Position numbers and translations under genes: made by a program. A DNA stretch of 32,045 nucleotides from positions 1-32,045 of the forward strand of contig NZ_BDGT01000051.1 of assembly GCF_001748285.1 (NCBI RefSeq), given 5' to 3'. The notes under the pieces were generated by a model that ran no database searches, had not been told where the DNA came from, and saw only the letters and a list, made by a program, of their open reading frames with translations. This document shows positions 7,108-31,259 of the stretch, piece after piece. Position 1 is the first letter of the stretch, and every line of letters begins with the position of its first letter. The stretch is from Thermogemmatispora onikobensis. Its GTDB lineage: Bacteria; Chloroflexota; Ktedonobacteria; Ktedonobacterales; Ktedonobacteraceae.

Positions 7108-7304
7108 AAGCAGACACCTCCTTCCGCTTTGCTCAGCTGCGTCACGCGCTTCAGCTTCAGCGCCCTCGGCTCTTGTCATTATCGCAGAGAGCCGCAAGCG
7201 CCTGCGCTCTCCCACCACTCAGTGGCCACAGAGGAAGATCACAGGCCGCCGGGTCTCCTCCCCACAGACGTGGCTCGCTGCCCGCTGCCCGGCCCCCCTC
7301 GCGT

Positions 7305-10994: not shown

Positions 10995-11044
10995 AACAAA
11001 CACACTCCTTCTGCTACCTGACTGACTTGCGCGTTCGTGCCCGG

Positions 11045-11986: not shown

Positions 11987-12007
11987 TGCTCTCGTGCTTC
12001 CTTCCAT

Positions 12008-14015: not shown

Positions 14016-14268
14016 GATGTCATCTCCTTCTTTGGAAGCTGGTGAATGCTCTGGGTCCATCCTTGTCGTCCTGTATCTGAAGCCCTGTGCTTTGCCTCGT
14101 CGTCCGTGTCTGTCTCGCCTCCGTTGCCTAACGCGGCCTCTCCTTGCGCGTCCTTCCAGCAATCTGCTCGCCTGCCTTCGAGGCTGCCTTAGCTGTACAT
14201 CAGTTCAACCGCGTGTACGGTCAAATGCTGGCCCTCCTCCGCTCTGACCATGACTCAAGTCTCAGTTG

Positions 14269-14282
14269 TGGGAGCGATCCCA
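14269..14282. promoter_or_regulatory. LacI-family operator at the binding-protein promoter
   Basis: TGGGAGCGATCCCA is a near-perfect palindrome with a central CG, as LacI/GalR operators have. The wider 14266-14285 stretch is TTGTGGGAGCGATCCCATAA. It falls about +7 to +20 relative to the predicted start site, where binding would block transcription. Its reverse complement is exactly the core of the site at 19485. Confidence 0.8.
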
Positions 14283-15488: not shown

Positions 15489-16750
15489 GCTTGCTCTTCC
15501 CTCTGTGTGCTGGCTTCGCTCGTCGCTTGTTGGCTCTGCGGCTGCTCTGCCTGCTCGTGCGCCGTCTCTTCGGGCCGGTTCGGCTGGTCAGCGGCGACGA
15601 CGGGCGTGTGGAGCAGGGCGCGCCCATCTTCGGGATCAAAGAGGTGGATTTTGCGCAGGTTGACGGCCAGCGGCACCTCGCGCCCGAGGTAGCTGCCGGG
15701 CAGGCGCGCTTTGAGGGTGGCCACGAAGTCGCGCGGGGTCGGCTCCAGGGTGCTCAGGTAGACGGTGCAGCCGCTGACGGTCGGTTCGATGACGTTGACG
15801 AGGCCACGGATAGTGCTGTCTTCGCTGATGGCAAAGTCGGCCCGGCGCGGCGGCTGCAGGTGCTCGGGCCGGATGCCCAGGTTGAGGCGCCGGCCTGTGT
15901 AGGGGGCAACGCGCTCCTGAAATTCTGCCGGAACGGGCAGGCGAAAGGCCGGATGGGTCAGGAGCAGGCGCCCGTTGTGGTCGGGACGCTCGTCGGGGCG
16001 GACCTCGACTTCGAAGAGGTTGATGCCCGGCGAGCCGATGAAGAAGGCGACGAACTGGTTGCAGGGCCGCTCGTAGAGGTCCAGGCCGCTGCCGACCTGC
16101 TGCAGCTTGCCGTCGCGCATGACGGCAATGCGGTCGCCAAGGGCCATCGCCTCGGCCTGATCGTGGGTGACGTAGACCGCTGGCTGCCCTTTCTGGCGGT
16201 GCAGGGTCAGGATGTCTTCGCGCGCCTGGTGACGAAGCTGGGCGTCAAGGTTGGCCAGCGGCTCATCGTAGAGATAGAGGGCAGCGTCGCGCACCAGTGC
16301 CCGCGCCAGGGCGACGCGCTGCCGCTCGCCACCACTGAGTTGACGTGGCTTGCGCCTCAGCAGGTGCTCGATGCGGAAGAGACGGGCCGCGTTGGTAACG
16401 CGCTCGCGGATCAGGTCGCGGGGCGCATGGCGAGCACGCAGGCCGTAGGCGATGTTTTCGAAGACGGTCAGGTGCGGGAAGATGGCGTAGTCTTGAAAGA
16501 CCAGGGCAACGTTGCGGTCGCGTGGACGGATGTCGTTGACCAGGCGCTCGCCGAAGTAGATGCGCCCGTCGCTGACCGGCTCTAGCCCGGCCAGCAGGCG
16601 CAGGGTGGTGGTTTTGCCACAGCCGGAGGGGCCGACGAGGACGAAGAGTTCTCCCGGCTGGATGTGCAGGTTGAGGTCGTCAACGACGGCCCGCTCGCCG
16701 AAGCGTTTGATGAGATGCTCGATGACGATGCCTCCGCTGGCCGGACCCAT
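15485..16750 (-). CDS. MalK/UgpC-type sugar ABC transporter ATPase (second of three)
   Basis: A 421-residue ATPase. It has Walker A GPSGCGKT (40-47), signature LSGGERQ (138-144), Walker B LYLYDEP (158-164), NLDA and H196 in YVTHDQ. The TOBE-type C-terminal domain is followed by a Gln/Glu/Ala-rich tail of about 35 residues (PVVAADQPNRPEETAHEQ and on) that looks disordered. The ATG at 16750 is chosen because AAGGAGAA lies about 6 bases upstream. The longer frame to 16849 starts in repeat-rich leader. The stop overlaps the next ATPase start. All ATP-site residues are intact. Confidence 0.93.
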   Translation of the reverse strand: MGPASGGIVIEHLIKRFGERAVVDDLNLHIQPGELFVLVGPSGCGKTTTLRLLAGLEPVSDGRIYFGERLVNDIRPRDRNVALVFQDYAIFPHLTVFENIAYGLRARHAPRDLIRERVTNAARLFRIEHLLRRKPRQLSGGERQRVALARALVRDAALYLYDEPLANLDAQLRHQAREDILTLHRQKGQPAVYVTHDQAEAMALGDRIAVMRDGKLQQVGSGLDLYERPCNQFVAFFIGSPGINLFEVEVRPDERPDHNGRLLLTHPAFRLPVPAEFQERVAPYTGRRLNLGIRPEHLQPPRRADFAISEDSTIRGLVNVIEPTVSGCTVYLSTLEPTPRDFVATLKARLPGSYLGREVPLAVNLRKIHLFDPEDGRALLHTPVVAADQPNRPEETAHEQAEQPQSQQATSEASTQREEQA

Positions 16751-16835
16751 AGGCTTCTCCTTCTCTTGTTCCTCTCTCTTCTCTGTATGCTTCGTGCTCC
16801 GCGTGCGTTTCTGCTTTGCTTGCTCTGTTGGTCTG

Positions 16836-16863
16836 ACGTCAAACGTCAAACGTCAAACGTCAA
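16836..16863 (-). repeat. Heptamer tandem repeat, ACGTCAA x4
   Basis: Four exact head-to-tail copies of ACGTCAA (TTGACGT on the minus strand) lie in the 156-base leader of the second ATPase gene. On the minus strand each copy contains TTGACG, a -35-like hexamer. Confidence 0.85.
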
Positions 16864-16906
16864 ACCGGCTCCTTCCTGCCTGGCTGTCAGGGATAATCGC
16901 AGTGGG

Positions 16907-18013
16907 TTAGAATAAGGCGGGCGGGCCAGGACTGTAGAGGAGATGCTCGTCATCGGCGGCAAAGTAGAGGAGCTGCTCCCAGTCGGGCCGCAGGCGCTGC
17001 AGACCACGGCTGTCGTCGGCCTCCTCCAGCGGCAGGGAGACGATGACGCGCTGCCCCAGCCAGTGACCGTGTACGAGGGCGACGCGCTCGGTGGGGAGGC
17101 GCTCGCTATGGCTGATCTCCAGTGGCAGGCCGTCCGCCTGGTCGCGCAGCCAGTGCTCGGCGCGCACGCCCAGCCGCAGCGGCCCCGATGGCAGGCGCCC
17201 GGCTAGCTCCTCGGGGAGCGGCCAGCTCCGCCCGGCGATCTGCAGGCGGCCCTCGCTGAGGGCGGCTGGCAGGACGTTGAGCGGCGGGCTGCCGATGAAG
17301 GTGGCCACGAAGAGGTTGACGGGTGTGTAGTAGAGGTCGTCAAAGCTGCCCACTTGCTCGATACGCCCCGCACGCATGACGGCCAGGCGGTCGCCCATGA
17401 AGATGGCTTCTTGCTGGTCGTGGGTGACGTAGAGCGTGGTGACGTGGAAGGTGCGTAGTAGCTTCTTGATCTCGATGCGCGTCCGCTCGCGCCGCTTGGC
17501 ATCCAGGTTGACGATGGGTTCGTCCATGAGAAAGATGGTGGGGTCGCGTACGATGCAGCGAGCGATGGCGACGCGCTGCTGCTCGCCGCCGCTGAGAGTC
17601 TCGGGGAAGCGGCCCAGCAGGTGCTGAAAGTCGACGCCCATGAGCTGGGCGGTGCGCCGGACACGCTCTTCCATCTGCTCATGGGTGTAGGCGTGGTGTT
17701 CGAAATAGTAGGCCAGATTCCCCTTGCTCTTCATGGCGGGGTAGAGGGCGTAGTCTTGAAAGACCATGCCGACGCCGCGGTCCTGGGGCTTGATCTCGGT
17801 CATGTCGATGTCGCCGTAGTAGATGCGTCCGTGGGTGGGGAATTCGAGGCCGGCGACAATCTTGAGCAGGGTGCTCTTGCCACAGCCGGAGGGGCCGACG
17901 ATGGCCAGCGTCTCGCCGTCGGCTACTTCCAGCGAGATGTCGCGCAGGGCCGGCTGGCGCCCCCCGGGACCGTCATAGTCCTTGACGATGTGTTCGAGCC
18001 GCAGGCTGGTCAT
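16907..18013 (-). CDS. MalK-type sugar ABC transporter ATPase (first of three)
   Basis: A 368-residue ATPase. It has Walker A GPSGCGKS (40-47), signature LSGGEQQ (140-146), Walker B IFLMDEP (160-166), NLDAKRR and H198 in YVTHDQ. The C-terminal TOBE-type domain runs from about residue 245. The ATG at 18013 has a GGAAG-type site about 8 bases away. It is the most divergent of the three tandem ATPases ([14 protein letters not shown] instead of LRHQAR). It sits between lacI and the other two, all on the minus strand. It may be the general MsmX/UgpC-like ATPase, with the pair downstream dedicated to another importer. That is inference. Confidence 0.92.
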
Positions 18014-18337: not shown

Positions 18338-19414
18338 TCAGCCAGCGCGTTGCTCTTCGCCCGAGGCGGCGGGCGCGCTGAGGTGTCGGGCTTGCCGGCG
18401 ATAACCACAGGACTGGCGAATGATGAGGGTGGTGGGCAGGATGATCTGGGCGCGCTCGCGGCGGTTGTGCTCCAGTTGGTCGAGGAGCAGCTCGGCGGCG
18501 CGGGTGCCCATCTCCACGCAGGGCTGACGGATGGTGGTCAGCTCGGGAAAGATCATGGTTGTCTGCAGGAGATCGTCGAAGCCGACGATGGCCAGATCAT
18601 CGGGGACCGAGAGGCCGCGCTCCTGGACGGCGCGCACGACGCCGGCAACCATCATGTCGTTGGAGGAGAAGAGGGCGGTCGGCGGCTCCGGCAGGTCGAG
18701 AAAGCGCTGCGTCCAGGCGTAACCGCTGGCGGGGGTCCAGTCACCGTCACCGACAAGGGCTTCGTCGAAGGGGATGCCGGCGGCGGCCAGGGCCTGACGA
18801 TAGCCCTCGAGGCGCGCATGGGTGCAGACGTCTTTCGCCAGCCCTTTGAGCATGGCGATGCGCCGGTGCCCCAGGGCGATCAGGTGCTCAACGGCCACGC
18901 GCGCCGCGGCGACGTTGTCAACGTCGACGTATTGCAGGTCGCCATCATCTTCGGGATCGTGCCCAACGCGCACGTAGGGCATGCCCGCCTCGCGCAGCAT
19001 GGCGGCGCTGCGGTCCTGACGGTCGCTGCTGATGAGGATGACGCCGTCAAAGTGGCGCCCCCGCAGGAGGCTGAAAAAGGTGGCCTCGTTCATGTCTTGC
19101 CGCCCGATGAAGAGCATCGGGGTGTAGCCTCGCTGGGCACAGACCTGGCTCACGCCACGCGCGATCTCGGCAAAGATAGGATTGCCAAAAAGATGATGGG
19201 CATTGTCAGGCAGGATCAACCCCACCAGGCGCGTCTTGCGCATGACGAGCTGCCGCGCCGCCGCCTGCGGCGCGTAGCCGTAGCTGTTGATGACTTCCTG
19301 CACGCGGTCTCTGACGCTCGGCCTGACGTTCGGTTGCCCATTGAGCACTCGCGACACTGTTGAGCGAGATACTCCGGCAATGCGCGCGATATCCTCAATC
19401 GTTAATTGCGACAT
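18338..19414 (-). CDS. LacI/GalR-family transcriptional regulator
   Basis: A 358-residue repressor-type protein. The N-terminal helix-turn-helix is LTIEDIARIAGVSRSTVSRV (4-23), followed by the hinge-helix segment. The periplasmic-binding-like sugar domain starts at KTRLVGLILPDNAHHLFGNP and includes the subdomain link VDVDNVAAARVAVEHLIALG. The ATG at 19414 is chosen because the HTH begins right after it, as in the family; an upstream in-frame start at 19516 would add 34 unrelated residues. Its promoter region carries a LacI-type palindrome at 19485, matched by copies at 14269 and 30309. It therefore probably regulates itself, the importer and both glycosidase units, released by an imported sugar. 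The effector is unknown. Confidence 0.95.
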   Translation of the reverse strand: MSQLTIEDIARIAGVSRSTVSRVLNGQPNVRPSVRDRVQEVINSYGYAPQAAARQLVMRKTRLVGLILPDNAHHLFGNPIFAEIARGVSQVCAQRGYTPMLFIGRQDMNEATFFSLLRGRHFDGVILISSDRQDRSAAMLREAGMPYVRVGHDPEDDGDLQYVDVDNVAAARVAVEHLIALGHRRIAMLKGLAKDVCTHARLEGYRQALAAAGIPFDEALVGDGDWTPASGYAWTQRFLDLPEPPTALFSSNDMMVAGVVRAVQERGLSVPDDLAIVGFDDLLQTTMIFPELTTIRQPCVEMGTRAAELLLDQLEHNRRERAQIILPTTLIIRQSCGYRRQARHLSAPAASGEEQRAG

Positions 19415-19448
19415 GAGCCAACCTGCGCGCCTCCAGGGCGGTTCCACG

Positions 19449-19478
19449 TTTACTTTTGGCTGCTGTTTCGTGTACAAT
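19449..19478 (+). promoter_or_regulatory. Promoter for the GH31-GH42 unit
   Basis: TTTACT (19449-19454) and TACAAT (19473-19478) are 18 bases apart. The predicted start near 19485 coincides with the left edge of the operator. Confidence 0.6.
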
Positions 19479-19484
19479 ACCTCG

Positions 19485-19498
19485 TGGGATCGCTCCCA
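19485..19498. promoter_or_regulatory. LacI-family operator in the divergent lacI/GH31 region
   Basis: TGGGATCGCTCCCA is the reverse complement of the 14269 site, and the palindrome extends to CGTGGGA...TCCCACG (19483-19500). It begins 6 bases after the GH31 -10 box and lies 71 bases upstream of the regulator's ATG, so it could control both directions. Confidence 0.8.
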
Positions 19499-19721
19499 CG
19501 ACGTTGCTATGTGCAAGCTTACCCGATCCTCCTCCTTCCTGTCAAGGGGTGAGGTGCCTGCCCGGTTGGCTGGCTGGCCACCCGCCCGCCCGCCCGCTCG
19601 CTTCCAGGCTCAGGTCAGCCTCGCTCAGGCGGACGACAGGACTGGGGCAGAGATCAGCATGGCTGAGGACAGGATGTCGGTACTATCGGACAAAGCCATT
19701 ACGCATGGAAGGAGTCTCTTC

Positions 19722-22142
19722 ATGGCAGAGCCGGTTCCTTTGCTTCCGTATAACCTGTACATGACTGAGCCGCCACGCTTGCCAGTGCGAGAACCGGAGG
19801 ATGAGGATGGCCCCGATTATGTGGTGGAGGCGACGCTTTTGGAGCGCGGTGAGCGCCATGTCCGGCTCCAGGGGCGCACCCTCAGTGGCTCCCCTCTCTT
19901 GATCACGCTGAGCCTGGTGGCCGATGGGATCGTGCGCGTCGTGCTGGAGGAGGAGCCTGATCCGACGCGCGTCCGCCTGGCGCGCGAGCTGCCCCCCCCT
20001 CCGGCTGCTGCGCCGCTGCTGGTCGAGGAGCAGGAGACGGGCCTGGCTCTGCTCTCCCCCTCGCTCCGTCTGGAGGCCACCCTGCGCCCCTTCGGCCTGC
20101 GCTTCCTGGACGCCGCTGGCCGTCCGCTGCTGGCCCAGAACTATAGCGAGCTGACCAATGTGCGCATGAAGCTGACGATTCTTCCTTTCGGGCTGAGCCG
20201 CTTCAATGGCCGGCGCGTGGCTTTCCACGATACGTTTACGGCGGAACCCGATGAGCATTTCTTTGGGCTGGGCGAGAAGTTTACGGATTTCGATAAACGC
20301 GGGCAGCGCATCACAACCTGGAATTGCGATTGTGGCGGGGCCTTCAGTGAGCGGGCCTATAAGAATGTGCCTTTCGTGGTGAGCACGCGCAAGTATGGGA
20401 TCTTTGTCGATAGCCCCTGCGCGGTCGATTTCGATCTGGTGGCCAGCAATACGGCGACGTTTACGCTGATTAGCCGCGATAGCGCTCTGGATTATTATGT
20501 GATCGCCGGGCCGGACCTGAAGACGATTATTACGCGCTATGCTTCGCTGGTGGGCTTTCCGATTCTGCCACCGAAGTGGGCCTTGGGGACCTGGATTTCG
20601 TCGGGCTTCCAGCGCGATAGTCAGGGCGAGGTGCTGGCGCGGGCTCGCTTGATCCGCGAGCATGAGATTCCTTGCGATGTGTTGCACCTCGATTGCTATT
20701 GGCAGCGCTTTGGACGCTGGTCAGAAGTGCAGTGGGATGAGGAGCGCTTTCCTGATCCGGCGGGTCTGATCGGGCAGTTGAAGGCCCAGGGCTTTAAGGT
20801 CTGTTTGTGGATTCATCCGTATCTGGGGACGGCCAGCGAGCGCTTTGCCGAGGGGGCAGCGCGCGGCTATTTTCTGAAGAATGCCGCCGGCGAGCCGTAT
20901 GTGGCCGATCTGTGGGGGGGCTTCCATCCACCGGTGGCCATGCTGGATGTGACGCACCCGGAGGCGGTGGCCTGGTTTCAGGGGCTGTTGCGCGAGCAGT
21001 TGCGCCTGGGGGTGGATGTCTTTAAGACGGACTTCGGGGAGGGTATTCCGACGGATGTGGTGGCTTATAGCGGGATTGCCGGCGAGCGTCTGCATAATTT
21101 GTATGCCTTGCTCTATAACGATGCGGTGGCCGAGGTGACGGCACGCGAGACGGGCCGCGCGGGCCTGGTCTGGGGCCGCTCCAGCTATGCCGGTGGTCAG
21201 CGCCATGCGGCGCAGTGGAGCGGCGACCCCAATGCGACTTTTACGGCTCTGGCTTCGACCTTGCGCGGTGGGCTGAGCCTCGGGATGTGCGGCCACGCTT
21301 TCTGGAGCCACGACATCGGCGGCTTTACCGGTCAGCCTTCTCCAGAGCTGTATATCCGCTGGGCCCAGTTCGGTTTCTTCTCTCCTCTGACGCGCGCTCA
21401 CGGCAATAGCTCGCGCCTCCCCTGGGACTTCGGTCCGCAGGCCCTGGAGATCTTCCGCTCGTATGCCCGCCTGCGCTATCGCTTGCTGCCCTATATCTAT
21501 ACCTACGCCTGCATCGCGGCCCGGACAAGTCTGCCGCTGTTGCGGGCGATGGTGCTGGAGTTCCCCGATGATCCGGCAACCTATACGCTGGATCTGCAGT
21601 ATATGTTTGGCGCGGAGCTGCTGGTGGCCCCGCTCTATCGCGCCGGGGGGGAGCGCCCGGTCTATTTGCCTGCCGGGACGTGGGTCGATTTCTGGAGCCG
21701 GACCGTGCTGCAGGGGCCGACGACGCTGCAGGTGCAGGCGCCTCTGGAGCAGCTTCCGCTCTATGTGCGCGCCAATGCCTTGATCCCGACGACGGAGCCG
21801 GCGCCGTTTGTGCGCGAGGAGCCGTTTGAGACGGTGGTTTTCGAGGCCTATCTGCTGCCGGAGGGGGCCGGGTCGTTTACGCTCTGCGATCTGGATGGGG
21901 AGACGACGGTGTCGGCGCGCTTGCAGGGGACGACGCTGGCCATCGAGGTGATGGGGGCAAAGCGTCGGCTGGGGCTGCGCCTGCTGAAGCTGGCCGGGCA
22001 GCCGCCCGTTGAGACGGTGCTGCTCAATGGCCACCAGTGCGAGCGCTGGATGGGTGAGACGGCCCCGGCCCTGGCCGAGGCGCCGGCTTCGGGCTGGTTC
22101 TCCCTACCCGATGGAGGGGGAGAGGTGACGGTGGTCCTCTGA
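19722..22142 (+). CDS. GH31 alpha-xylosidase (YicI-like)
   Basis: An 806-residue retaining glycosidase that removes non-reducing alpha-xylose. KTDFGEGIPTD (435-445) is the YicI-type signature with nucleophile D437, and the acid/base is D502 in WSGDPNA. These are 65 residues apart; the YicI pair is 66 apart. RGGLSLGMCGHAFWSHDIGG (515-534) follows as in YicI. The N-terminal beta-sandwich spans about 30-275, the barrel about 285-620, and C-terminal beta domains complete it. There is no signal peptide, so it acts in the cytoplasm on imported oligosaccharide. The ATG is chosen for GGAAGGAG at 19707-19714; a longer open frame reaches 19287 without one. It is first gene of a two-gene unit behind a LacI operator. 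GH31 also contains alpha-glucosidases, but the signature favours xylosidase. Confidence 0.93.
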   Translation: MAEPVPLLPYNLYMTEPPRLPVREPEDEDGPDYVVEATLLERGERHVRLQGRTLSGSPLLITLSLVADGIVRVVLEEEPDPTRVRLARELPPPPAAAPLLVEEQETGLALLSPSLRLEATLRPFGLRFLDAAGRPLLAQNYSELTNVRMKLTILPFGLSRFNGRRVAFHDTFTAEPDEHFFGLGEKFTDFDKRGQRITTWNCDCGGAFSERAYKNVPFVVSTRKYGIFVDSPCAVDFDLVASNTATFTLISRDSALDYYVIAGPDLKTIITRYASLVGFPILPPKWALGTWISSGFQRDSQGEVLARARLIREHEIPCDVLHLDCYWQRFGRWSEVQWDEERFPDPAGLIGQLKAQGFKVCLWIHPYLGTASERFAEGAARGYFLKNAAGEPYVADLWGGFHPPVAMLDVTHPEAVAWFQGLLREQLRLGVDVFKTDFGEGIPTDVVAYSGIAGERLHNLYALLYNDAVAEVTARETGRAGLVWGRSSYAGGQRHAAQWSGDPNATFTALASTLRGGLSLGMCGHAFWSHDIGGFTGQPSPELYIRWAQFGFFSPLTRAHGNSSRLPWDFGPQALEIFRSYARLRYRLLPYIYTYACIAARTSLPLLRAMVLEFPDDPATYTLDLQYMFGAELLVAPLYRAGGERPVYLPAGTWVDFWSRTVLQGPTTLQVQAPLEQLPLYVRANALIPTTEPAPFVREEPFETVVFEAYLLPEGAGSFTLCDLDGETTVSARLQGTTLAIEVMGAKRRLGLRLLKLAGQPPVETVLLNGHQCERWMGETAPALAEAPASGWFSLPDGGGEVTVVL

Positions 22143-22180
22143 GATTCGTCCTGTCTGGCATCATGCCCAGGAGGAGAAGC

Positions 22181-24226
22181 ATGGAGGCCTTTCCACCGCT
22201 GAATCCACGTGCTCCTTTTATCTGGTACGGTGGCGACTATAATCCTGAGCAGTGGCCGCGCGCTGTCTGGGATGAGGATCTGCGTTTGATGCAGGAGTGC
22301 CGCTTTCGCGTGGCGACGGTGGGTGTCTTTAGCTGGACGGCGCTGCAGCCGGCGGAGGAGCGCTTTACTTTCGGTTGGCTCGATCAGGTGCTGGATAAGC
22401 TGACGGCGGCGGGCTGCCGGGTCTGTCTGGCAACGCCCAGCGCGGCGCAGCCGGCCTGGTTGTCGCAGCGCTATCCCGAGGTGTTGCGGGCCGATCCGAC
22501 GGGTCGCCGCCGCCACCACGGCTGGCGCGTGAACTATTGTCCGACCTCGTCGGTCTATCGCCGCCTGGCCGCCCAGATGGCGGCGAAGCTGGCCGAGCGC
22601 TATCATGCGCATCCAGCCCTGGTGGCCTGGCATGTCTCGAATGAGTATGCGCCGGCCTGCTACTGCGAGCAGTGCGCGGCGGCTTTCCGCGATTGGCTGC
22701 GTACGCGCTATGGCAGCCTCGATGAACTCAACCGGCGCTGGTGGACCCGCTTCTGGAGCCATACGTACACGGATTGGTCGCAGATTGAGCCTCCTTATGC
22801 CAACGGCGAGGGTTCGCTTCACGCTTTGACGCTGGATTATCGCCGCTTCCAGAATGAGATGTTACTGGAGTGCTTTCGGCTGGAGCGTGAGGCGATCCGC
22901 CAGTTCTCGCGCGAGGTGCCTATCACAACGAATCTGATGCGCTTCTATCGCGATCTCGATTATCGCCTCTGGGCGCGTGAGATGGATGTGGTGGCCTGGG
23001 ACTGCTATCCCTCTGTCGAGGATGAGCCGCTCGATATTGCGCTGGCTCATGATTTGATGCGCAGTCTGCGCGATGGGCAGCCGTTCTTGCTGATGGAGCA
23101 GTCGCCCAGTAGTCAGAACTGGCAGCCGTACAATACGTTGAAGCGGCCCGGGGAGCTGCGCCTGCAGAGCTATCAGGCGCTGGCCCACGGGGCGGAGTCG
23201 GTGATGTTCTTTCAGTGGCGGCGCAGTCGCGGCGGGATCGAGAAGCTGCATGGGGCGGTGATCGAGCACAGTGGGCGCAGCGATACGCGCGTCTTTGCGG
23301 AGGTGCAGGCCCTGGGCCAGGAGCTGGAGCGCCTGGGCGGGCGGACGCTGGGCGGGGTGACGCCGGCTCAGGTGGGGCTGCTCTTCGATTGGGAAAACTG
23401 GTGGGCGCTGGAGGATTGCAGCGGGCCGACGCGCGAGAAGCGCTATCTGGAGACGTTGCGCGCTCATTATGCGCCGTTCTGGCGGCGCAATGTGCCAGTC
23501 GATCTGGTCTTTAGCGATTCGGATCTGGGACGCTATCGTCTGCTGATGGCGCCCCTCCTCTATCTGCTCAAGGAGGGGCTGGCCGAGCGCCTGGCGGCCT
23601 TCGTGCAAGATGGGGGGACGCTGGTGACGACCTATCTGTGTGGGATGGTGGATGAGTGCGATCTGGCTTTTGAGGATGGCTATCCGGGGCCACTGCGCCA
23701 TGTGCTGGGGATCTGGAACGAGGAGATCGAGGCGCTGCCGCCGGGGTGCACGAATCGTCTGGTGTTAAACGATGGGCGCAGCTTTGCCTGCGGCCATCTG
23801 TGTGCGCTGATCCATGATGAGGGGGCCGAGGTGCTGGGGCGCTACGGCGAGGATTTCTATGCCGGGCGCCCGGCCTTGACGCGCCATCGTGTGGGCCGCG
23901 GTCAGGCTTTCTATCTGGCGTGCGAGCCGGAAGCGGCTTTTCTGGAGAGCTTCTACGGGGAGCTGCTGGGGGAGCTGGGGATCGCTCCGGCGCTGGAGAC
24001 GCCGCCAGGCGTGGAGGCGACGCTGCGCCAGACGGCCCGTGAGCGCCTGCTCTTTGTGCTCAATCATGGGCGGGCGCCGGCAACGGTGACGCTGCCGCCG
24101 GGCCGCACGTTTGAGGAGCTGCTGACGGGCCGGATGGTGAGCGGCTCGCTCTCGCTGCCCGGGCTGGAGGTGGCTATTCTGGCGGAGCCGCTCGCTTCCG
24201 AGCCTAGCCAGCGGGCAGGATCTTGA
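22181..24226 (+). CDS. GH42 beta-galactosidase
   Basis: A 681-residue enzyme that releases terminal beta-galactose (some members act on alpha-L-arabinopyranose). The A domain opens with YGGDYNPEQWP. Acid/base E155 lies in WHVSNEY and nucleophile E306 in LLMEQSP. The zinc-site cysteines of Thermus A4 beta-galactosidase appear conserved: C120, C160, C162 and C165 (ACYCEQC). A trimerisation domain follows from about residue 385 and a small beta domain ends the protein. The ATG at 22181 is chosen for AGGAGGA at 22169-22175; the ATG at 22163 is upstream of that site. It lies 38 bases after the GH31 stop in the same unit. There is no export signal. Its last 23 bases overlap the end of the convergent GH29 gene. 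Confidence 0.94.
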   Translation: MEAFPPLNPRAPFIWYGGDYNPEQWPRAVWDEDLRLMQECRFRVATVGVFSWTALQPAEERFTFGWLDQVLDKLTAAGCRVCLATPSAAQPAWLSQRYPEVLRADPTGRRRHHGWRVNYCPTSSVYRRLAAQMAAKLAERYHAHPALVAWHVSNEYAPACYCEQCAAAFRDWLRTRYGSLDELNRRWWTRFWSHTYTDWSQIEPPYANGEGSLHALTLDYRRFQNEMLLECFRLEREAIRQFSREVPITTNLMRFYRDLDYRLWAREMDVVAWDCYPSVEDEPLDIALAHDLMRSLRDGQPFLLMEQSPSSQNWQPYNTLKRPGELRLQSYQALAHGAESVMFFQWRRSRGGIEKLHGAVIEHSGRSDTRVFAEVQALGQELERLGGRTLGGVTPAQVGLLFDWENWWALEDCSGPTREKRYLETLRAHYAPFWRRNVPVDLVFSDSDLGRYRLLMAPLLYLLKEGLAERLAAFVQDGGTLVTTYLCGMVDECDLAFEDGYPGPLRHVLGIWNEEIEALPPGCTNRLVLNDGRSFACGHLCALIHDEGAEVLGRYGEDFYAGRPALTRHRVGRGQAFYLACEPEAAFLESFYGELLGELGIAPALETPPGVEATLRQTARERLLFVLNHGRAPATVTLPPGRTFEELLTGRMVSGSLSLPGLEVAILAEPLASEPSQRAGS

Positions 24227-25670
24227 GGGCGCCGCCGCGCTCGCCTGGCGGGGCGGGGGGTAGCGTGACGTGCAGGCCCTGCTCGTCGCGTGTCCAGGAC
24301 AGGGGGACGTCGTCGCCGAGCAGGTGGACGGCGCCGATGCGGTGCGGGTAGTGGGGGCTGCCAGCGGCCAGGGCCTGGATGCTGACCCTGCCCTGCGGCG
24401 GCCAGACGGGCAGCAGGACGTAGAGGGTTTGGCCGCGGCGGGTGAAGCGCAGGTCTTGGGCGGTAAAGGCGGCCTGCTGGCCCTCGCTGAAGGCGCCGGC
24501 GGCGCTGGCGGTGGGGCCTTCGCCGTGGAGGTGCCAGGGCTGGCTGTCGTAGATGGCTTCGCCGTTGATGGCCAGCCAGCGCCCCAGGCGGCGCAGGAGG
24601 TCGGCCTCTGGCTCGGGAATGCTGCCGTCGGCGCGTGGGCCGATGTTGAGCAGGAAGACGCCGTTTTTGCTGACGGTGTCGATGAGGTCGTCGAGCAGAG
24701 TGCCGAAGGGCTTGTAGTCCTGGGCGACAGTGTAGCCCCAGGAGTTGCGGGCGACGCTGGTGTCGGCCTGCCAGACGCGCCGGCTGATGGCGGGACGGCG
24801 TCCGCGTTCGATGTCTTCGACGGCGCTGCCTTCGTCAAAGGCGCCTTCTTTGTAGGTGATGACGACTTCCTGTCCCCAGCGGGCGGCGCGGTTGTAGTAG
24901 TAGGCGGCGAAGCGGGCCAGAGAGGGGCGGAAGGCGGGCCGCGAGATCCACCAGTCGAAGTAGATGAGGGCGGGCCGATAGCGTTCGACCAGCTCGTAGA
25001 GTCGGGCCAGCCAGTCGTCGAGAAAGGCGGCGTCGGGCGGCTCGTCGTCGGGCCGCGCGGGTCCGTAGAGGTCGGCGTACTGGGGGTCCTGGACGTCGCT
25101 GGGAATGGTTCTGCCGCCGTTGAAAAACCACCAGTGTTCGGCGCGGTGCGAGGAGAGGCCGAAGGTGAGGCCGCGGGCGCGTACGGCTTCGGCTAGTTCG
25201 CCGATGATGTCGCGGCGCGGCCCCATGTCGACGGCGTTCCAGCGTGAGAAGCTGCAGCGGTACATGGCAAAGCCGTCGTGGTGTTCGGCAACGGGGACAA
25301 CGAAGCGGGCGCCGGCTTCCTGGCAGAGGGCGGCCCAGGCGGCGGGATCGAAGCGCTCGGCGCGGAAGTGCGGGATGAAGTCTTTGTAGCCGAAGCGCTC
25401 GGGGGGGCCGTAGGTGGCCAGGTGGTGGCGGTAGGCCGGCGTGTCGGGCAGGTACATGTTACGGGGGTACCATTCGTTGTCGTAGGCCGGGACGGCGTAG
25501 AGGCCCCAGTGGATGAAGATGCCGAAGCGCGCGCCGGCGTACCAGGCCGGCACACGGTAGGCGCGCAGGGAGTGCCAGTCGGGGGTAAATGGCCCAGCAG
25601 CGGCCAGGCGTTCGATCGCGTTGAGCGCTTCCTGCTGCTCGTAGCGCTGCTGCGGCTGTGGCTGTTGCAC
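24204..25670 (-). CDS. GH29 alpha-L-fucosidase
   Basis: A 488-residue retaining fucosidase. Conserved blocks are ARFGIFIHWGLYAVPAYDNEWY (47-68), AEHHDGFAMYRCSFSRWNA, the nucleophile D239 in LIYFDWW, and VSKNGVFLLNIGPRADGSIP. The C-terminal beta-sandwich runs from about residue 390. There is no signal peptide, which is unusual compared with secreted fucosidases and fits cytoplasmic action on imported oligosaccharides. It starts at a GTG with AAGGAGG at 25680-25686, 9 bases away. It lies 73 bases after the GH116 gene on the same strand. Its stop lies inside the 3' end of the GH42 gene (23-bp tail-to-tail overlap). Confidence 0.94.
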   Translation of the reverse strand: MQQPQPQQRYEQQEALNAIERLAAAGPFTPDWHSLRAYRVPAWYAGARFGIFIHWGLYAVPAYDNEWYPRNMYLPDTPAYRHHLATYGPPERFGYKDFIPHFRAERFDPAAWAALCQEAGARFVVPVAEHHDGFAMYRCSFSRWNAVDMGPRRDIIGELAEAVRARGLTFGLSSHRAEHWWFFNGGRTIPSDVQDPQYADLYGPARPDDEPPDAAFLDDWLARLYELVERYRPALIYFDWWISRPAFRPSLARFAAYYYNRAARWGQEVVITYKEGAFDEGSAVEDIERGRRPAISRRVWQADTSVARNSWGYTVAQDYKPFGTLLDDLIDTVSKNGVFLLNIGPRADGSIPEPEADLLRRLGRWLAINGEAIYDSQPWHLHGEGPTASAAGAFSEGQQAAFTAQDLRFTRRGQTLYVLLPVWPPQGRVSIQALAAGSPHYPHRIGAVHLLGDDVPLSWTRDEQGLHVTLPPAPPGERGGALKILPAG

Positions 25671-25743: not shown

Positions 25744-28700
25744 CTAGAGGCGCACCTCCAGGGTCTGGCCGGCTTCGATCAGCACGGGCGGGTCGAAGTG
25801 CCAGCTTGCTCCTTCGCGGCGGCCCTGGATGGGGACAGCGGCCAGCCAGACGGCCTGCTCGCCCGGCGGTGTGCGCGGCGTGGCGGCCTCGGCGGGCAGG
25901 GTCAGCTGGTGCAGGCTGAGCTGACCCTCCTGGATATGAAGCAGGAGACGCCCTTCGCCGGCGCGGTACTCGATGCTCCCCCAGGCGCCGGGCAGGACCA
26001 GCGGCTGCCGCCAGTGGCCGTCGGCAGGCAGCAGGCGCGGCTGCAGGCTCAGGGCCTGGCGCGGGGCGTCGTAGCTGAGGCCGCCGAGGGCCGGCCAGGC
26101 CAGCCAGATGCTCAAGGCTCGATAGTAGTGGCCGCCGCACTCTTGATGGTCCCAGGTCTGGCCGGCGCGCTCGTAGCGCGTGTAGACCTCGTGGATGATC
26201 GTCACTCCTTCGCCGACGAGGCCCTCCAGCAGCATCTGGACAGCAACGGTGTATTCGGTCCCCGACCAGACGGTCTCGGCCTGATGGCGCGGGTCGCCGA
26301 GGGTCCAGTGATCGGGCCGGTCGGCGCGCTTGCCGGGCGGGAGCATGCCGTTGACCAGGCCGCGCCCGGGCACAAAGTTGTAGCGATAGATGGCGCGCAG
26401 GGCCGACAGAATGTGCTCGCGCGGCAGGATGTCGCCCAGGCCGAGCAGGGTGGCGTAGAGCTGGCCGCTGAGCTGGTCGGCCATACAGGACTCGTTGCGC
26501 CGTCCGCTGCGTGGGTCAACCCACAGATCGTAGTACTCCCCGTTCCAGAGCAGGCGCTCCATGCTGGCCTGGCTCTCGGCAAACTGGCGCTCCAGGTTGT
26601 GGGCGTAGTCTTCGTCGCCGAGCAGGTGGGCCATCTGGGCGGTGGCCTTGAGGGCTGCCAGCCAGATCGACGAGACGTAAGCCGAGTAGCCGATGAAGTC
26701 CCAGGTATCGTACGTCTGCGAGGAGATGGCCGTCTCCGAGGGGGCGTGGTCGTAGTGGTAGGGCAGGCCGACCTTGAGTTCGTCGATGCGGCGGGCGTGC
26801 TCCATCGCCGCCTTGACCGCCGGCCAGAGCCGTTCCAGGGCGGCGCGGTTGGCCGTCCAGCGGTAGTCACGCCAGACCTGCAGGGCGAACTTGGGCATGA
26901 GGTCGACCATGTGGTAGGCGTCGACGACGGCGAAGCTGCCGGGGAAGAGGTGCGGGATGCGTCCGCTGGCGTCGAGGCCGGTTTCGGCGGCCACTTCCCG
27001 ATAGAGGGCCTGGCGACGCTGGGGATCACGGGCTAGCTCCGGCTCGCTCTCGGTGCGGCGCCAGACGCGCTCACGGTTGGCGGCGAAGGCTAAGAAATAG
27101 TCGTCGTAGCGCGGCGAGGCAGGGGTGAGCTGGAAGTCGGCGGTCATCTGGAGCTGGCGCTCCTCCAGTTCGGGGAAGAAGAGGGCCACGGCATGGGAGC
27201 CGTAGTACGAGACGTCGAGGGTCTGCAGGCCGCAGCAGCCCAGGCCCTCCCAGATGCCGAAGCGCCCGTCGCGTACCAGCCAGGAGGATTTGACCAGGGT
27301 GGTGAGCTGGGCGTTGATGGCGTCGGCCAGCCAGTCGGGGACGGAGGCGCCGTACTGCAGGTCGTGGAAGGCGCGCGTGCGGGTGTAGAGGGTCGCTCGG
27401 GCCTCGGTGACGTAGCGGGCAACGTCGAGGGCGTCGCTGAACCAGCTTTCGTAGCGGTGGCCGAGGTCGTCGCCGACGTTCTCGCCGCGGTGGTTGGGAA
27501 AGTACCAGGTCAGGAGAAAGGTCAGGTCGCGCTCGCTCCAGGGGGCCAGCTCCAGAACAGGGCTGCTGATGGCGGCGTGCGTCGGGCGGGTGGCGCGGGT
27601 GTTGAAGAGCTTCGGAGCCTGCTCGTTGAGGAGGCGCGCCAGGGCGCCCAGCTCGCTGAGACGGGCACTGGCCTGAGCGGGATCGCGCAGCAACTCAGGC
27701 CGCTCCTGACGCTCACGCTCGTACTGGGCGCGCGCTTCGGGCGTCAGGTTGAGTTCGAGCAGTAAGGCCCAGCGCCAGCGCGGGTCTTGATAGCGGATGG
27801 GGTCGGCGGCGATACGCGCTTGCAGGGCGTGCCGGTCGGGGACGAGGGCGCTGTCGACCATGCCGCGCAGCAGGCTGGGCAGTTGGCCGTAGGCGCTGGC
27901 CGGGTCGAGTCCTTCGCGGACGATGCGTTCGAGCAGGGCGCGCAGGGGATCGCCGCCCACCGGATCAGGGACAAACTGGCCGCCGCTGGCCCAGCTCTGC
28001 CAGGCGTTGAGGTCGCCGACTTCGCGCAGCTCCGTCACCAGCTCGGCCTCGTCCTCTAGCAGGGCGAAGACGAGCGAGCCGCGCGCCAGGGGATGGTCGG
28101 CGGGCAGGTCATCGGCGCTGAAGATGAGGGCGCTCAATCCGGGCGCCCGCTCGCTGCGCGTCTGGGGCTGGCCGGCTTCCTGGCTGAGGGCCTCCAGGCT
28201 AAAGACCTGCGGGAGGAGGCCGAGCAGGGAGACCTCGACGGCTTCGGGGCCGGGATTGCTGAGGTGAAAGGTGAAGAAGGCCGCCGGCAGGGCCGAGTGT
28301 TTGACATCCCCCGGCACGAAGCTCGACCAGGCTTCGAGGCGGACGGCCACGGGCAGGGCCGGGTCACAATAGTCCAGCCAGGCAAAGGGGAATGCTCCGC
28401 TAAAGTGGATCTCCTGCACGCTTTCGACGTATGACAGGATGTAGGTGAAGCGCGCTTCGCTCTCGCTGCGTTCGCGCAGGATACGCACGACCGCTGGCTC
28501 TGCCGCCGCACTGCCCTCAGCCGCGAGGCGCCTGCGTCGGGCGCGGATGGCGAAGAGGGTGTCGCCGGGACGGACGGGCGAGCTGAGCGGCGGACTCCAC
28601 GGGGCGCCATGCCCGCTCCAGGGCGGATTGTTGAAGATCTGCCATTCGTGCAGGGCGCCGTCAGCGCGGATCTCGATGCTGCCGGTGCCCAGTCCTCCCA

Positions 28701-28758
28701 GGGGGATGCCGGAGAGCGGGGCCACACCCCGCCTGCTTCGCGTGCGAGCTGCTTTCAT
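25744..28758 (-). CDS. GH116 glycosidase (beta-glucosidase/beta-xylosidase, GBA2-like)
   Basis: A 1004-residue retaining enzyme. The N-terminal beta domain begins GIPLGGLGTGSIEIRADG (17-34), typical of GBA2/TxGH116. In the C-terminal alpha/alpha-barrel the predicted nucleophile is E504 (FGIWEG, followed by TLDVSYYGS), and the acid/base is D684 (SQTYDTWDFIGYSAY). Known members hydrolyse beta-glucosides, beta-xylosides or glucosylceramide. Here backbone glucose of xyloglucan is the likely target. It is about 200 residues longer than bacterial TxGH116; much of the excess seems to lie in a helical, charged stretch at 240-395. There is no export signal. The ATG has AAGAGGAG 14 bases upstream, a long spacing. 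It lies between CobW (121 bases) and GH29 (73 bases) in one minus-strand unit. Confidence 0.92.
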   Translation of the reverse strand: MKAARTRSRRGVAPLSGIPLGGLGTGSIEIRADGALHEWQIFNNPPWSGHGAPWSPPLSSPVRPGDTLFAIRARRRRLAAEGSAAAEPAVVRILRERSESEARFTYILSYVESVQEIHFSGAFPFAWLDYCDPALPVAVRLEAWSSFVPGDVKHSALPAAFFTFHLSNPGPEAVEVSLLGLLPQVFSLEALSQEAGQPQTRSERAPGLSALIFSADDLPADHPLARGSLVFALLEDEAELVTELREVGDLNAWQSWASGGQFVPDPVGGDPLRALLERIVREGLDPASAYGQLPSLLRGMVDSALVPDRHALQARIAADPIRYQDPRWRWALLLELNLTPEARAQYERERQERPELLRDPAQASARLSELGALARLLNEQAPKLFNTRATRPTHAAISSPVLELAPWSERDLTFLLTWYFPNHRGENVGDDLGHRYESWFSDALDVARYVTEARATLYTRTRAFHDLQYGASVPDWLADAINAQLTTLVKSSWLVRDGRFGIWEGLGCCGLQTLDVSYYGSHAVALFFPELEERQLQMTADFQLTPASPRYDDYFLAFAANRERVWRRTESEPELARDPQRRQALYREVAAETGLDASGRIPHLFPGSFAVVDAYHMVDLMPKFALQVWRDYRWTANRAALERLWPAVKAAMEHARRIDELKVGLPYHYDHAPSETAISSQTYDTWDFIGYSAYVSSIWLAALKATAQMAHLLGDEDYAHNLERQFAESQASMERLLWNGEYYDLWVDPRSGRRNESCMADQLSGQLYATLLGLGDILPREHILSALRAIYRYNFVPGRGLVNGMLPPGKRADRPDHWTLGDPRHQAETVWSGTEYTVAVQMLLEGLVGEGVTIIHEVYTRYERAGQTWDHQECGGHYYRALSIWLAWPALGGLSYDAPRQALSLQPRLLPADGHWRQPLVLPGAWGSIEYRAGEGRLLLHIQEGQLSLHQLTLPAEAATPRTPPGEQAVWLAAVPIQGRREGASWHFDPPVLIEAGQTLEVRL

Positions 28759-28828
28759 GGCTGCGTTCGTCGCTCCTCTTACTCCTGTGACACTGACTGG
28801 ACTGGATCAGCGGCGCGCCGCCGCCGCT

Positions 28829-28857
28829 GGGTTGGGTCGGGTTGGTCTGCCGTTGGG
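28829..28857 (+). other. G-rich run with quadruplex potential
   Basis: Four GGG tracts on the plus strand start at 28829, 28834, 28839 and 28855, in the 121-base gap between CobW and GH116 genes, within a stretch of repeated GTTGGG. The last loop is long (13 bases), so a stable three-layer quadruplex is uncertain. Confidence 0.35.
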
Positions 28858-28879
28858 CACTGGTTGGGCCGCGGTTGGG

Positions 28880-30145
28880 TCAGGGAGGGCCGTGCTGGCT
28901 GACGCCCGGCCCAAAACGGTAATGCGGCTGGGGGGGCGCCGGCTGGAAGGCGCTCAACTCTTCGATCTCGGCCTGCAGTCCTCCGGGGGCCGCCGCCAGG
29001 ACGGCGCGCACGTGCGTTTCAAGGACGGCGGGCGAGCAGTCGACGCGGGCATTGAGCAGCCAGACAGCCTCGTCGGGCAGCAGATGGGCGCTGCGCGCGT
29101 CCCAGCTAATGGCCGCCGGCGCGGGACCGCAGAGGCTGGCTTTGATCAGGCGCCCCTGGAGCTGCTCCTGCTGGCTGGCCGCCGCCTCCGCGCGATCGGG
29201 AACCTGGCGCCTGTCCGGCTCCTCGCTGAGGAGGCGCCGCAGGGCCTGCGGGGCGACGAGTAGCTTGATATGGGCGATGACCAGCCCGGCGCGCGCCAGC
29301 CGCTCCTGAAGCTGGCTGAGCAGGGCGGCAGCCCAGGCCAGTACCCGGCCCGCTTCGCCGTTGCTGGTCCCGATCGGATGAGAGGACTGCAGGCGACCAC
29401 GGGCGTTGAGCCAGCCCAGACGCGCTTCGGCCCGCGCATAGCGCCGATAGTCGAGGTCATCCAGGCGATGGGCTTCGGCCTCGCTGACGCGGGCAGTGTT
29501 GACGTCCTGCAGCAGATTATCGAGCCAGAGGGCCACGCTCTCGCGCCGGCGCGCCGTCATGGGCAGGACTGGTACCCCGGGACAGTAGGCCCGCAGCCAG
29601 TTGCGCAAAAAGAGCTGCTCGTCGGCAGCGAGCAGGTCGCTTTTGTTGATCAGGAGCAGGTCACCCTCTTCGATCTGGCGGGCGAAGAGATAGGCGACGT
29701 CATCGTTGAGCAGGCTCAGGTCGCCGTGCCGGATCAGATGGGAGAGACGCGGACCGTCGACGACGATGCTCAGACAGGCTGGACGGTAATGCTCGCGGTA
29801 GAGGTGTAAGAGGGGGAGGATGACGGTGGCCTGCAGGTCGGTGCAGCTCCCAACTGGCTCGGCCAGAATAACGTGCGGCTCGATGCGCCGCTCCAGGTCG
29901 GCGACGGCCTCTAGCAGGTCGCTGAAACGGCAGCAGAAACAGCCCGCGGTGACCTCGGCGACGGCCTCGCCCGACCAGGCGGCGGCCAGGGCGGTGTCGA
30001 CGAGTTCGCGCCCCTGGTCGTTGGTAATCAGGGCCACGCGCAGGCCGCGCTGATGCAGGATGGCGGCAGCCTGAAGCAGGAGGGTGGTCTTGCCCGCTCC
30101 CAGAAAGCCACCGGCGATGATCAGCTTGGGCCTGGTTTCGTGCAC
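28880..30145 (-). CDS. CobW/COG0523-family G3E GTPase (metallochaperone-type)
   Basis: A 421-residue GTPase. Walker A is GGFLGAGKTT (12-21), the family's metal-binding CxCC is GCFCC (near 68-72), a Walker B-like strand is HVILAEPVG, and the base-specificity motif is NKSD (near 165). The CobW C-terminal domain follows, with a long insert rich in Arg and Gln. Known relatives deliver Zn, Co or Fe to client enzymes. It starts at a GTG with GAGGAG about 6 bases upstream. It heads the GH116-GH29 unit, behind a promoter and LacI-type operator. Zinc supply to the cysteine-site GH42 enzyme is a possible reason for its place here, but the client is not visible in the sequence. Confidence 0.9.
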   Translation of the reverse strand: MHETRPKLIIAGGFLGAGKTTLLLQAAAILHQRGLRVALITNDQGRELVDTALAAAWSGEAVAEVTAGCFCCRFSDLLEAVADLERRIEPHVILAEPVGSCTDLQATVILPLLHLYREHYRPACLSIVVDGPRLSHLIRHGDLSLLNDDVAYLFARQIEEGDLLLINKSDLLAADEQLFLRNWLRAYCPGVPVLPMTARRRESVALWLDNLLQDVNTARVSEAEAHRLDDLDYRRYARAEARLGWLNARGRLQSSHPIGTSNGEAGRVLAWAAALLSQLQERLARAGLVIAHIKLLVAPQALRRLLSEEPDRRQVPDRAEAAASQQEQLQGRLIKASLCGPAPAAISWDARSAHLLPDEAVWLLNARVDCSPAVLETHVRAVLAAAPGGLQAEIEELSAFQPAPPQPHYRFGPGVSQHGPP

Positions 30146-30277
30146 TACGCTCCTCTTTCGTTGGTGAAGCGGCAGCTACTCCTTCTGCTGGACAGCGGGC
30201 CCGGCCCCGTCCAGGCACAGGTCACACGTTCAGCGCGGGCCGGCAGATTGCCCGCCACCACGCGCGCTCTAGAGGAA

Positions 30278-30307
30278 AGGGTACCAGAGGCGCCTTCGTC
30301 CTGTCAA
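30278..30307 (-). promoter_or_regulatory. Promoter for the CobW-GH116-GH29 unit
   Basis: On the minus strand TTGACA (30307-30302) is followed after 18 bases by TACCCT (30283-30278). The -35 is consensus and the -10 is weak. It lies 133 bases before the GTG start. Confidence 0.5.
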
Positions 30308-30308
30308 G

Positions 30309-30322
30309 TGGGAACGCTCCCA
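30309..30322. promoter_or_regulatory. LacI-family operator upstream of the CobW unit
   Basis: TGGGAACGCTCCCA is the third copy of the palindrome found at 14269 and 19485, with the same arms and central CG. It abuts the -35 box of the CobW promoter (one base apart), so binding should compete with RNA polymerase. Confidence 0.75.
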
Positions 30323-30349
30323 GGCTTGCCACTCCTCAGCTCAGGGCGC

Positions 30350-30601
30350 TCACGAACTGAGGGAATGAGCCGCCCCGTTCGTGCTCGCCGCTGCCAGCTC
30401 CCGCGCGCCTCGCAAGATGAGCTGCCTCAGTGCTTCGCCCTGGAGCGTTCCTTCTCGGTTTCCGATGACAAGCATCGTTGGTGGATAGACAAAGAGAGGA
30501 GCATGTGGGTAATCCACAAGGTAAATATCCAGAGTGGGCAGAAGTCGCCGAAACGGAGCCAGGCTCTTCCACAATGCACGCCGTTCCTTGGGCGTCAGCA
30601 A
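30350..30601 (-). CDS. Small hypothetical protein, possible remnant
   Basis: An 83-residue frame starting with TTG. The residues look protein-like (LPTLDIYLVDYPHAPLFVYP, then TMLVIGNREGTLQGEALRQL), ending in a low-complexity tail. The similar character continues upstream of the TTG (CPFGAILGPCEQLLTPKERR) until a stop at 30671, but no ATG, GTG or TTG is available there and there is no ribosome site. It may start at a CTG, be misassigned, or be a decayed gene. I do not recognise the family. It lies upstream of the CobW operator on the same strand. Confidence 0.4.
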   Translation of the reverse strand: MLTPKERRALWKSLAPFRRLLPTLDIYLVDYPHAPLFVYPPTMLVIGNREGTLQGEALRQLILRGARELAAASTNGAAHSLSS

Positions 30602-30896: not shown

Positions 30897-31259
30897 TCAG
30901 AGAATGCACCACGGCTCACCGTCGAGCTGCGGGTAGTCGCGCTGATGGATGCGCTCCGCACAGGGGGCGCAACAGGCGGTGAAAGCAATCGATGCATATT
31001 CGAGCACCTTGTGCAGGCAGAGATCGCTGGCGATGCGCAGCTGCCATTTTTCGGGCAAATAGCAATACTCGCGAGCCACATAGTCGCGCAGTTCCTGAGC
31101 CAGCCGGGTGGGCATGCGCAGGCCGTAGCGATGCTCCGTCAGGCGGCCACAAATACAGCGGTCACCGGCGCGCCGATCGAGAGAGGAGGCCGCGCCATCC
31201 TCGCAAGGAGGCTGATCGACGGTGCCGACGGGTGCGGCGCTCTCGCTCTGCTCTGGCAT
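30897..31259 (-). CDS. Hypothetical cysteine-rich small protein
   Basis: A 120-residue protein that I do not recognise. The first 30 residues are polar and probably disordered. The rest contains eight cysteines, including CICG (near 35-38), C66, C80, the cluster CCAPC (near 95-99) and C118 close to the end. The pattern suggests a metal-binding (zinc) or redox-active domain. The helical middle MPTRLAQELRDYVAREYCYL is amphipathic. The ATG has AAGGAG 10 bases upstream, the first of four such motifs in tandem. No neighbour gives its role. Confidence 0.7.
   Translation of the reverse strand: MPEQSESAAPVGTVDQPPCEDGAASSLDRRAGDRCICGRLTEHRYGLRMPTRLAQELRDYVAREYCYLPEKWQLRIASDLCLHKVLEYASIAFTACCAPCAERIHQRDYPQLDGEPWCIL

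Follow-up and report, generated by a model that had tools for sequence, protein, structure and literature searches.

Gene content of the CobW locus

The window analysed here, a whole stretch of 32,045 nt from the 5.56 Mb genome of Thermogemmatispora onikobensis, carries on its minus strand a gene for a G3E GTPase of the COG0523 type (CobW; 28880–30145, 421 aa, GTG start). The next gene on that strand, beyond a gap of 121 nt, encodes a GH116 glycosidase (25744–28758; 1004 aa, PF04685 and PF12215), and the third gene of the operon, after a further 73 nt, a GH29 alpha-L-fucosidase (24204–25670; PF01120, 6e-100). Between CobW and GH116, a scan of positions 28600–30500 detected nothing terminator-like; it reported five such sites (0.7 expected), all of them within the CobW gene and three on its own strand. 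CobW, GH116 and GH29 are likely to be read as one transcript. Facing them on the plus strand are a GH31 gene (19287–22142), whose closest solved relative is YicI and whose listed ORF probably begins ahead of the true start, and a GH42 beta-galactosidase gene (22163–24226), whose product has a Cys4 site (C126, C166, C168 and C171). Upstream of CobW, in all six species compared (the window and loci L005–L009), lies a cysteine-rich ORF of 120 aa with no Pfam match (30897–31259 in the window, minus strand).

The CobW protein matches PF02492 (cobW) with 87.5 bits (E = 1e-24) against a Pfam cut-off of 20.7. The Walker A core (GxLGxGKTT), the NKxD motif (N167-K-x-D170) and the CxCC motif (GCFCC; C69-F-C71-C72) are unchanged in all eight aligned members of its subfamily, as are two subfamily signatures, NDQ...LVDTA and AE.VGSC.D. 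YjiA is the only convincing solved relative, and the match covers the GTPase domain (residues 10–181). The C-terminal region, roughly 170–230 residues long, matched no Pfam family: PF07683 (CobW_C) is absent from the Pfam table of the window protein at E up to 10, nor does it occur among 25 of the 29 families listed for the eight subfamily members at the same limit. The protein also scored under the cut-offs of three narrower models, namely ZigA (NF038288; 49.1 bits, cut-off 600), cobalamin-biosynthesis CobW (TIGR02475; 48.3 bits, cut-off 332.1) and CobW-related selenoproteins (NF041053; 42.8 bits, cut-off 180). From its sequence, the window CobW is a COG0523-type G3E GTPase of a subfamily without CobW_C and with a C-terminal region of its own, and it is predicted to bind metal. 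It resembles the COG0523 family (YjiA, CobW, ZigA/ZagA and Nha3) in its PF02492 GTPase domain, CxCC and NKxD, but differs in having no PF07683 match and a C-terminus outside Pfam, and in standing behind a sugar-type operator in a glycosidase operon. In PMC2770081, the CxCC motif of COG0523 is defined and the C-terminal domain is ascribed to most, not all, members. The genome holds four PF02492 matches, one of which is MeaB; two others received no identity from the family search, so the window CobW may be its sole COG0523 protein.

Operators, promoter and regulator

A 14-bp palindrome of the CebR/CelR type, TGGGAACGCTCCCA (30309–30322), lies upstream of CobW at a distance of about 160 nt from its start. 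Two more operators are found in the window: one between the LacI gene and GH31–GH42 (19485–19498), which also occurs at the relatives' loci L005–L008 and L127, and one upstream of the sugar-binding-protein operon (14269–14282), which also occurs in G001 (L127). All three have at most one mismatch to TGGGARCGYTCCCA, our criterion for the 14-bp CebR/CelR palindrome, with one mismatch each at 19485 and 14269. At up to two mismatches these are the three sites of the window, against 0.66 expected by chance, and at up to one mismatch the entire genome holds four sites, three of them in the window.

The CobW operator abuts a minus-strand TTGACA (30302–30307) that is conserved in six of six species. 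We read by eye a probable promoter here (30278–30307, minus strand), with this -35 element, an 18-nt spacer and a weak -10 element, TACCCT (30278–30283); a sigma-70 scan of 28600–30500 reported no promoter-like site, this one included. The operator region before CobW is kept in all six species and has drifted in three, reading TGGGAGCGCTCTCG in T. aurantia and TGAGAGCGTTCTCG in two others. A LacI-family regulator gene (18338–19516, minus strand; PF00356/PF13377; true start probably near 19411) presumably encodes the protein that reads the three operators. In Streptomyces, the cello-oligosaccharide repressor CebR/CelR has the 14-bp consensus palindrome TGGGAGCGCTCCCA, and its regulon includes genes for the binding protein of an ABC transporter and for intracellular beta-glucosidase (PMC5332605). 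The window is alike in its LacI-family gene, ABC transporter and GH116; it differs by one base at the CobW operator and in adding CobW, a divergent Cpn60 and a fucosidase to the regulon. The preliminary description had placed CobW at the head of a glycosidase operon (GH116, GH29) behind a sugar operator, and both the gene order and the sugar-type (CebR/CelR-like) operator bear this out.

It had also named a Zur-type site as the alternative means of control. We searched with three Zur consensus patterns of phyla other than Chloroflexota; these may not fit the host, and they gave a single window site, with three mismatches, at 8755, far from CobW, and no near match by the gene itself. This bears on the idea that CobW is a general zinc-homeostasis protein of the ZagA/ZigA type that has drifted into a sugar operon. 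A CxCC GTPase that may be the only COG0523 protein of its genome would suit such a role. The low ZigA score (49 bits against 600), the failure to find CobW_C, the lack of a match near CobW to the three consensuses from other phyla and the conserved sugar-type operator all argue against it, and we regard it as quite unlikely.

A transporter and chaperonin block under the third operator

The third operator precedes an apparent operon, all on the minus strand, which comprises the sugar-binding protein of an ABC transporter (12321–14162), two permeases (11045–12007 and 9954–11003), a membrane-protein-like ORF of 239 aa with no Pfam hit (8987–9706), a divergent, chaperonin-like Cpn60 (7305–8990) and a BNR/YCF48-like beta-propeller (5287–7218). 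The propeller gene lies directly downstream of the Cpn60-like gene, as it does in G186, G033, G024 and G001. The membrane-protein ORF, between the permeases and the Cpn60-like gene, has the same position in G033. A shared position likewise suggested a homologue in G186, which we rejected at a similarity of only E = 0.27; a DUF624-like label for the two proteins was dropped as well, neither having a Pfam hit. The block ends with an FAD-dependent tryptophan-halogenase-like protein (3556–5268, minus strand; 67% identity in G033). Three tandem MalK-type ABC ATPase genes (14343–18013, minus strand), probably the product of duplication, lie downstream of the LacI gene. Judged by the functions of their families, GH31, GH42, GH29 and GH116 would together suit the degradation of fucosylated xyloglucan oligosaccharides, with xylose, galactose, fucose and glucose taken off in steps.

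Among 13 aligned Cpn60 sequences, the equivalent of the functional residue Asp398 of GroEL is missing and GDG is kept in the divergent proteins of the window, G001, G186, G033, G024, G189 and G295 and likewise in one Cpn60 of G274, whereas the three ordinary GroELs retain the Asp. In several Chloroflexota lineages, divergent Cpn60 genes (window, L122, L124, L125, L126 and L072) adjoin permease or binding-protein genes resembling those of the sugar ABC transporter; loci L124–L126 gave no BNR/YCF48-like propeller match. In G274 (L124), a run of four adjacent Cpn60 genes lies close to a GH29 gene and a transporter of this sugar ABC type.

The GTPase and the divergent Cpn60 could be a folding-assistance pair for the large enzymes of the regulon or for its transporter, with metal incidental. 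Such a pair would account for G186, where the Cpn60 and propeller genes also lie downstream of CobW and only 5 nt separate CobW from the Cpn60-like gene, and for the operators of one kind in front of both genes in the window; in relatives whose contigs show both genes, they are about 20 kb apart. There is also the example of Nha3, which is unnecessary for nitrile hydratase when GroESL is co-expressed (Haas et al., PMC2770081). However, G033 keeps the transporter/Cpn60/propeller block without CobW, the stretches read of G483 and G428 gave no Cpn60-like match, and CxCC is invariant in all eight CobW members. On balance, we consider such a pair rather unlikely.

Linkage of CobW and GH116 across Chloroflexota

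CobW, GH116 and GH29 are consecutive in six of six Thermogemmatispora genomes (one draft contig ends inside GH29); kept to this extent, the arrangement is not due to chance. In the organism's own class, some CobW match occurs in 13 of 47 genomes and a close relative only in the six Thermogemmatispora. A profile search of 400 Chloroflexota genomes, in which at most four candidates of each genome were scored and misses are possible, found at least six more genomes with relatives of the full-length type (at least 137 bits; next match 58 bits). In the class of G186 (158 genomes), seven genomes have a full-length CobW, with at least 140 bits against at most 105 for the rest; two of the seven were already in the 400-genome set. 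Counting lineages as genera, nine have full-length members of the CobW subfamily.

GH116 is linked to CobW in four of these nine, namely Thermogemmatispora, G483, G428 and G186. In G483, behind ABC-transporter genes, the CobW stop and the start of the GH116 ORF overlap by 4 nt; in G428 the two genes follow one another with 131 nt between; and in G186 the order is transporter genes, CobW, Cpn60, propeller and GH116. The linkage proposed in the preliminary description is thus conserved throughout the genus and recurs in three distant Chloroflexota lineages. Assuming 1.2% for each lineage, the chance that three of eight non-genus lineages are linked within about 10 kb is near 1e-4. The recurrence of the pairing in distant relatives hints that one sugar enzyme needs help in receiving metal. 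A literature search by title, with most subscription papers outside its coverage, found no paper on pairing of COG0523/CobW with a glycosidase or with GH116.

The other five lineages (G310, G189, G295, G381 and genus g114) showed no GH116 in the DNA read on either side of CobW, a stretch of 3.5 to 20 kb. In one lineage unlinked to GH116, the CobW member (L074) is near uroporphyrinogen-decarboxylase-family and ECF CbiQ genes. Another member, L077, is near MocA and fucose-isomerase-like genes, and a further neighbour of 426 aa, which has no Pfam hit, resembles by eye the uroporphyrinogen-decarboxylase-type neighbour at L074. The neighbours of L077 and L074 are possibly other clients of the CobW subfamily. 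Neighbour ORFs were picked by length and some are in the wrong frame (for L072 10096–11370, only the end is a real gene), so their Pfam blanks mean little.

Co-occurrence of CobW and GH116

In the 400-genome sample, GH116 is present in 11 of the 12 genomes with a full-length CobW subfamily member, compared with 60 of 400 overall. The one that lacks it, G189, belongs to a genus in which another species does have GH116. By genus, CobW and GH116 occur in one genome in six of seven, against 36 of 224 genera with GH116, and in the class of G186 all seven CobW genomes have GH116 (42 of 158 overall). GH29, taken as a control, gave a weaker association (11 of 12 CobW genomes against 111 of 400). Hypergeometric values, which still contain relatedness and so serve as guides only, come to 4e-9 (GH116) and 5e-6 (GH29) when genomes are counted, and to 7e-5 and 2e-3, respectively, when genera are. 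Since the control also co-occurs with CobW, part of the co-occurrence reflects saccharolytic genomes.

These figures bear on the view that CobW is a passenger in GH116 operons with no functional tie to them. That GH29 co-occurs as well, and that five of nine lineages are unlinked in the DNA read, would be expected of a passenger; four linked lineages with differing gene orders, one of them with a 4-nt overlap, would not, and we judge this view unlikely.

GH42 as a candidate client

The preliminary description had proposed the GH42 enzyme with its Cys zinc site as a client of CobW. The four cysteines are indeed present, and the gene stands behind an operator of the same kind as that of CobW. 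Its role as client fared less well: GH42 is convergent to the CobW operon, not within it; none was seen in the stretches around the three other GH116-linked CobW genes; and 5 of the 17 genomes that have the CobW subfamily gave no GH42 match. Of the three GH116-linked genomes outside the genus, two carry GH42 elsewhere; in the third, a genome 75% complete, none was found. The source genome itself has a second GH42 on another contig. Further, Cys4 GH42 enzymes elsewhere are not known to need a dedicated partner for folding, which we count against this proposal. Because GH42, unlike GH116, does not travel with CobW, we rejected it as the leading client, and a beta-galactosidase client with a Cys4 zinc-type site now seems very unlikely.

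Cysteine pairs near the GH116 active site

The window GH116 has only five cysteines in 1004 residues. Two pairs, Cys508-Cys509 and Glu873-Cys874, are conserved in all nine CobW-linked GH116s (the six of the genus and those of G186, G428 and G483), and the Cys-Cys and Glu-Cys form is also found in the readable unlinked GH116s of three CobW genomes (G310, G295 and G381). Alignment with TxGH116 makes E504 the counterpart of its catalytic nucleophile, E441, and D515 that of its D452. The loop joining these two residues holds the Cys-Cys pair, which follows the nucleophile by 4 residues in the window, by 8 in G186 and G428, and by 17 in G483. Shortly before R880 comes the Glu-Cys pair, with Glu873 seven residues ahead of it. 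This arginine is present in all 54 GH116s compared and aligns with the one taken as R792 of TxGH116, an assignment made from how E777, R786 and R792 are spaced in the classical motif; residue roles in TxGH116, among them R792 as a sugar contact, follow PMC10167657 and PMC10509167. The alignment does not equate Glu873 with the TPE Glu of classical GH116s (E777 of TxGH116); as the case rests on the cysteines, this leaves the odds of our reading unchanged.

The comparison set of 54 Chloroflexota GH116s consists of 53 best-scoring loci (at most 30 per search) and L072, with weaker GH116s, including those of G384, G436, G438 and G439, left outside it. In this set, Cys509 and Cys874 occur together in 35 sequences and neither occurs in the remaining 19, of which 18 are of the classical type and one is the window-like GH116 of G425, a genome with no full-length CobW. 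Position 508 is Cys in 31 of the 35 with Cys509 and Glu-Cys, and Ser in four. In the class of G186, GH116s with Cys509 and Glu-Cys also occur where a full-length CobW is absent, in at least 17 genomes (in three of them as the Ser-Cys form); the GTPase is thus no general requirement.

GH127 has the (alpha/alpha)6 fold, as has GH116. In the GH127/GH146 zinc cysteine glycosidases, as in the GH116s described here, three cysteines and one glutamate stand near the active site, and in GH127 these form the zinc ligand set (PMC10728902). GH116 differs in belonging to another family, in keeping its Glu nucleophile and in its residue order, and its metal site is a candidate only. ExoMA2 (8ic6), the closest solved relative of the G186 GH116, has Ser-Cys plus Glu-Cys; the words zinc, Zn2+, Ca2+, metal ion and Cys are all absent from the main text of its paper, and in the literature that we searched no metal site was found reported for any GH116. 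AlphaFold models built from six close sequences each (mean pLDDT 40.3 for CobW and 36.7 for GH116) are too poor to place the cysteines.

A possible role of CobW in GH116 maturation

Taken together, the operon, operator and linkage of the preliminary description stand, and GH116 takes the place of GH42 as the recurring partner and the better candidate for the client; for either enzyme, the metal is a prediction. The best explanation we can offer is that CobW is a GTPase dedicated to the maturation of GH116, a proposal drawn from sequence comparison that we hold tentatively, as plausible but somewhat short of probable. CobW, GH116 and GH29 would be made together once a beta-glucan-derived, probably xyloglucan, oligosaccharide causes the LacI-type, CebR/CelR-like repressor to leave its operator. 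CobW would then bind a transition metal, most likely zinc, at CxCC together with GTP and dock on apo-GH116 via its C-terminal region, and GTP hydrolysis would pass the metal to a thiolate site by the GH116 active site (Cys508, Cys509, Cys874 and Glu873).

A parallel is offered by Nha3 (P47K), a COG0523 GTPase that serves one enzyme with cysteine metal ligands by maturing Fe-type nitrile hydratase (PMC2770081, PMC9164220) and for which GroESL can stand in. The client of the window CobW would be a glycosidase, and we liken the two by mode of action, not by sequence comparison; by analogy, the case of Nha3 and GroESL lends some precedent to the idea that a COG0523 GTPase and a chaperonin may go together. 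Another relationship known in the family is that of COG0523 subfamily 13, which adjoins corrinoid methyltransferases (PMC2770081). The CobW member at L074 is similar in its uroporphyrinogen-decarboxylase-family neighbour, whereas no such neighbour was seen among the genes scanned, in part, at the GH116-linked loci. A wider reading, in which a subset of GH116 would be zinc-thiolate enzymes whose maturation falls to a COG0523 GTPase of their own, joined in some lineages by an ATPase-impaired chaperonin, all within one sugar-induced regulon, seems doubtful.

Characterisation is lacking for many COG0523 GTPases, as is knowledge of their clients (PMC9164220), and a recurrent tie at the operon level to one glycosidase family provides a concrete candidate client for such a GTPase. 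If CobW does mature GH116, this would be a glycoside hydrolase served by metal-insertion machinery of its own, and a large group of GH116 enzymes would become candidate carriers of a metal site so far overlooked. Confirmation would link the delivery of metal to the breakdown of plant polysaccharides in thermophiles.
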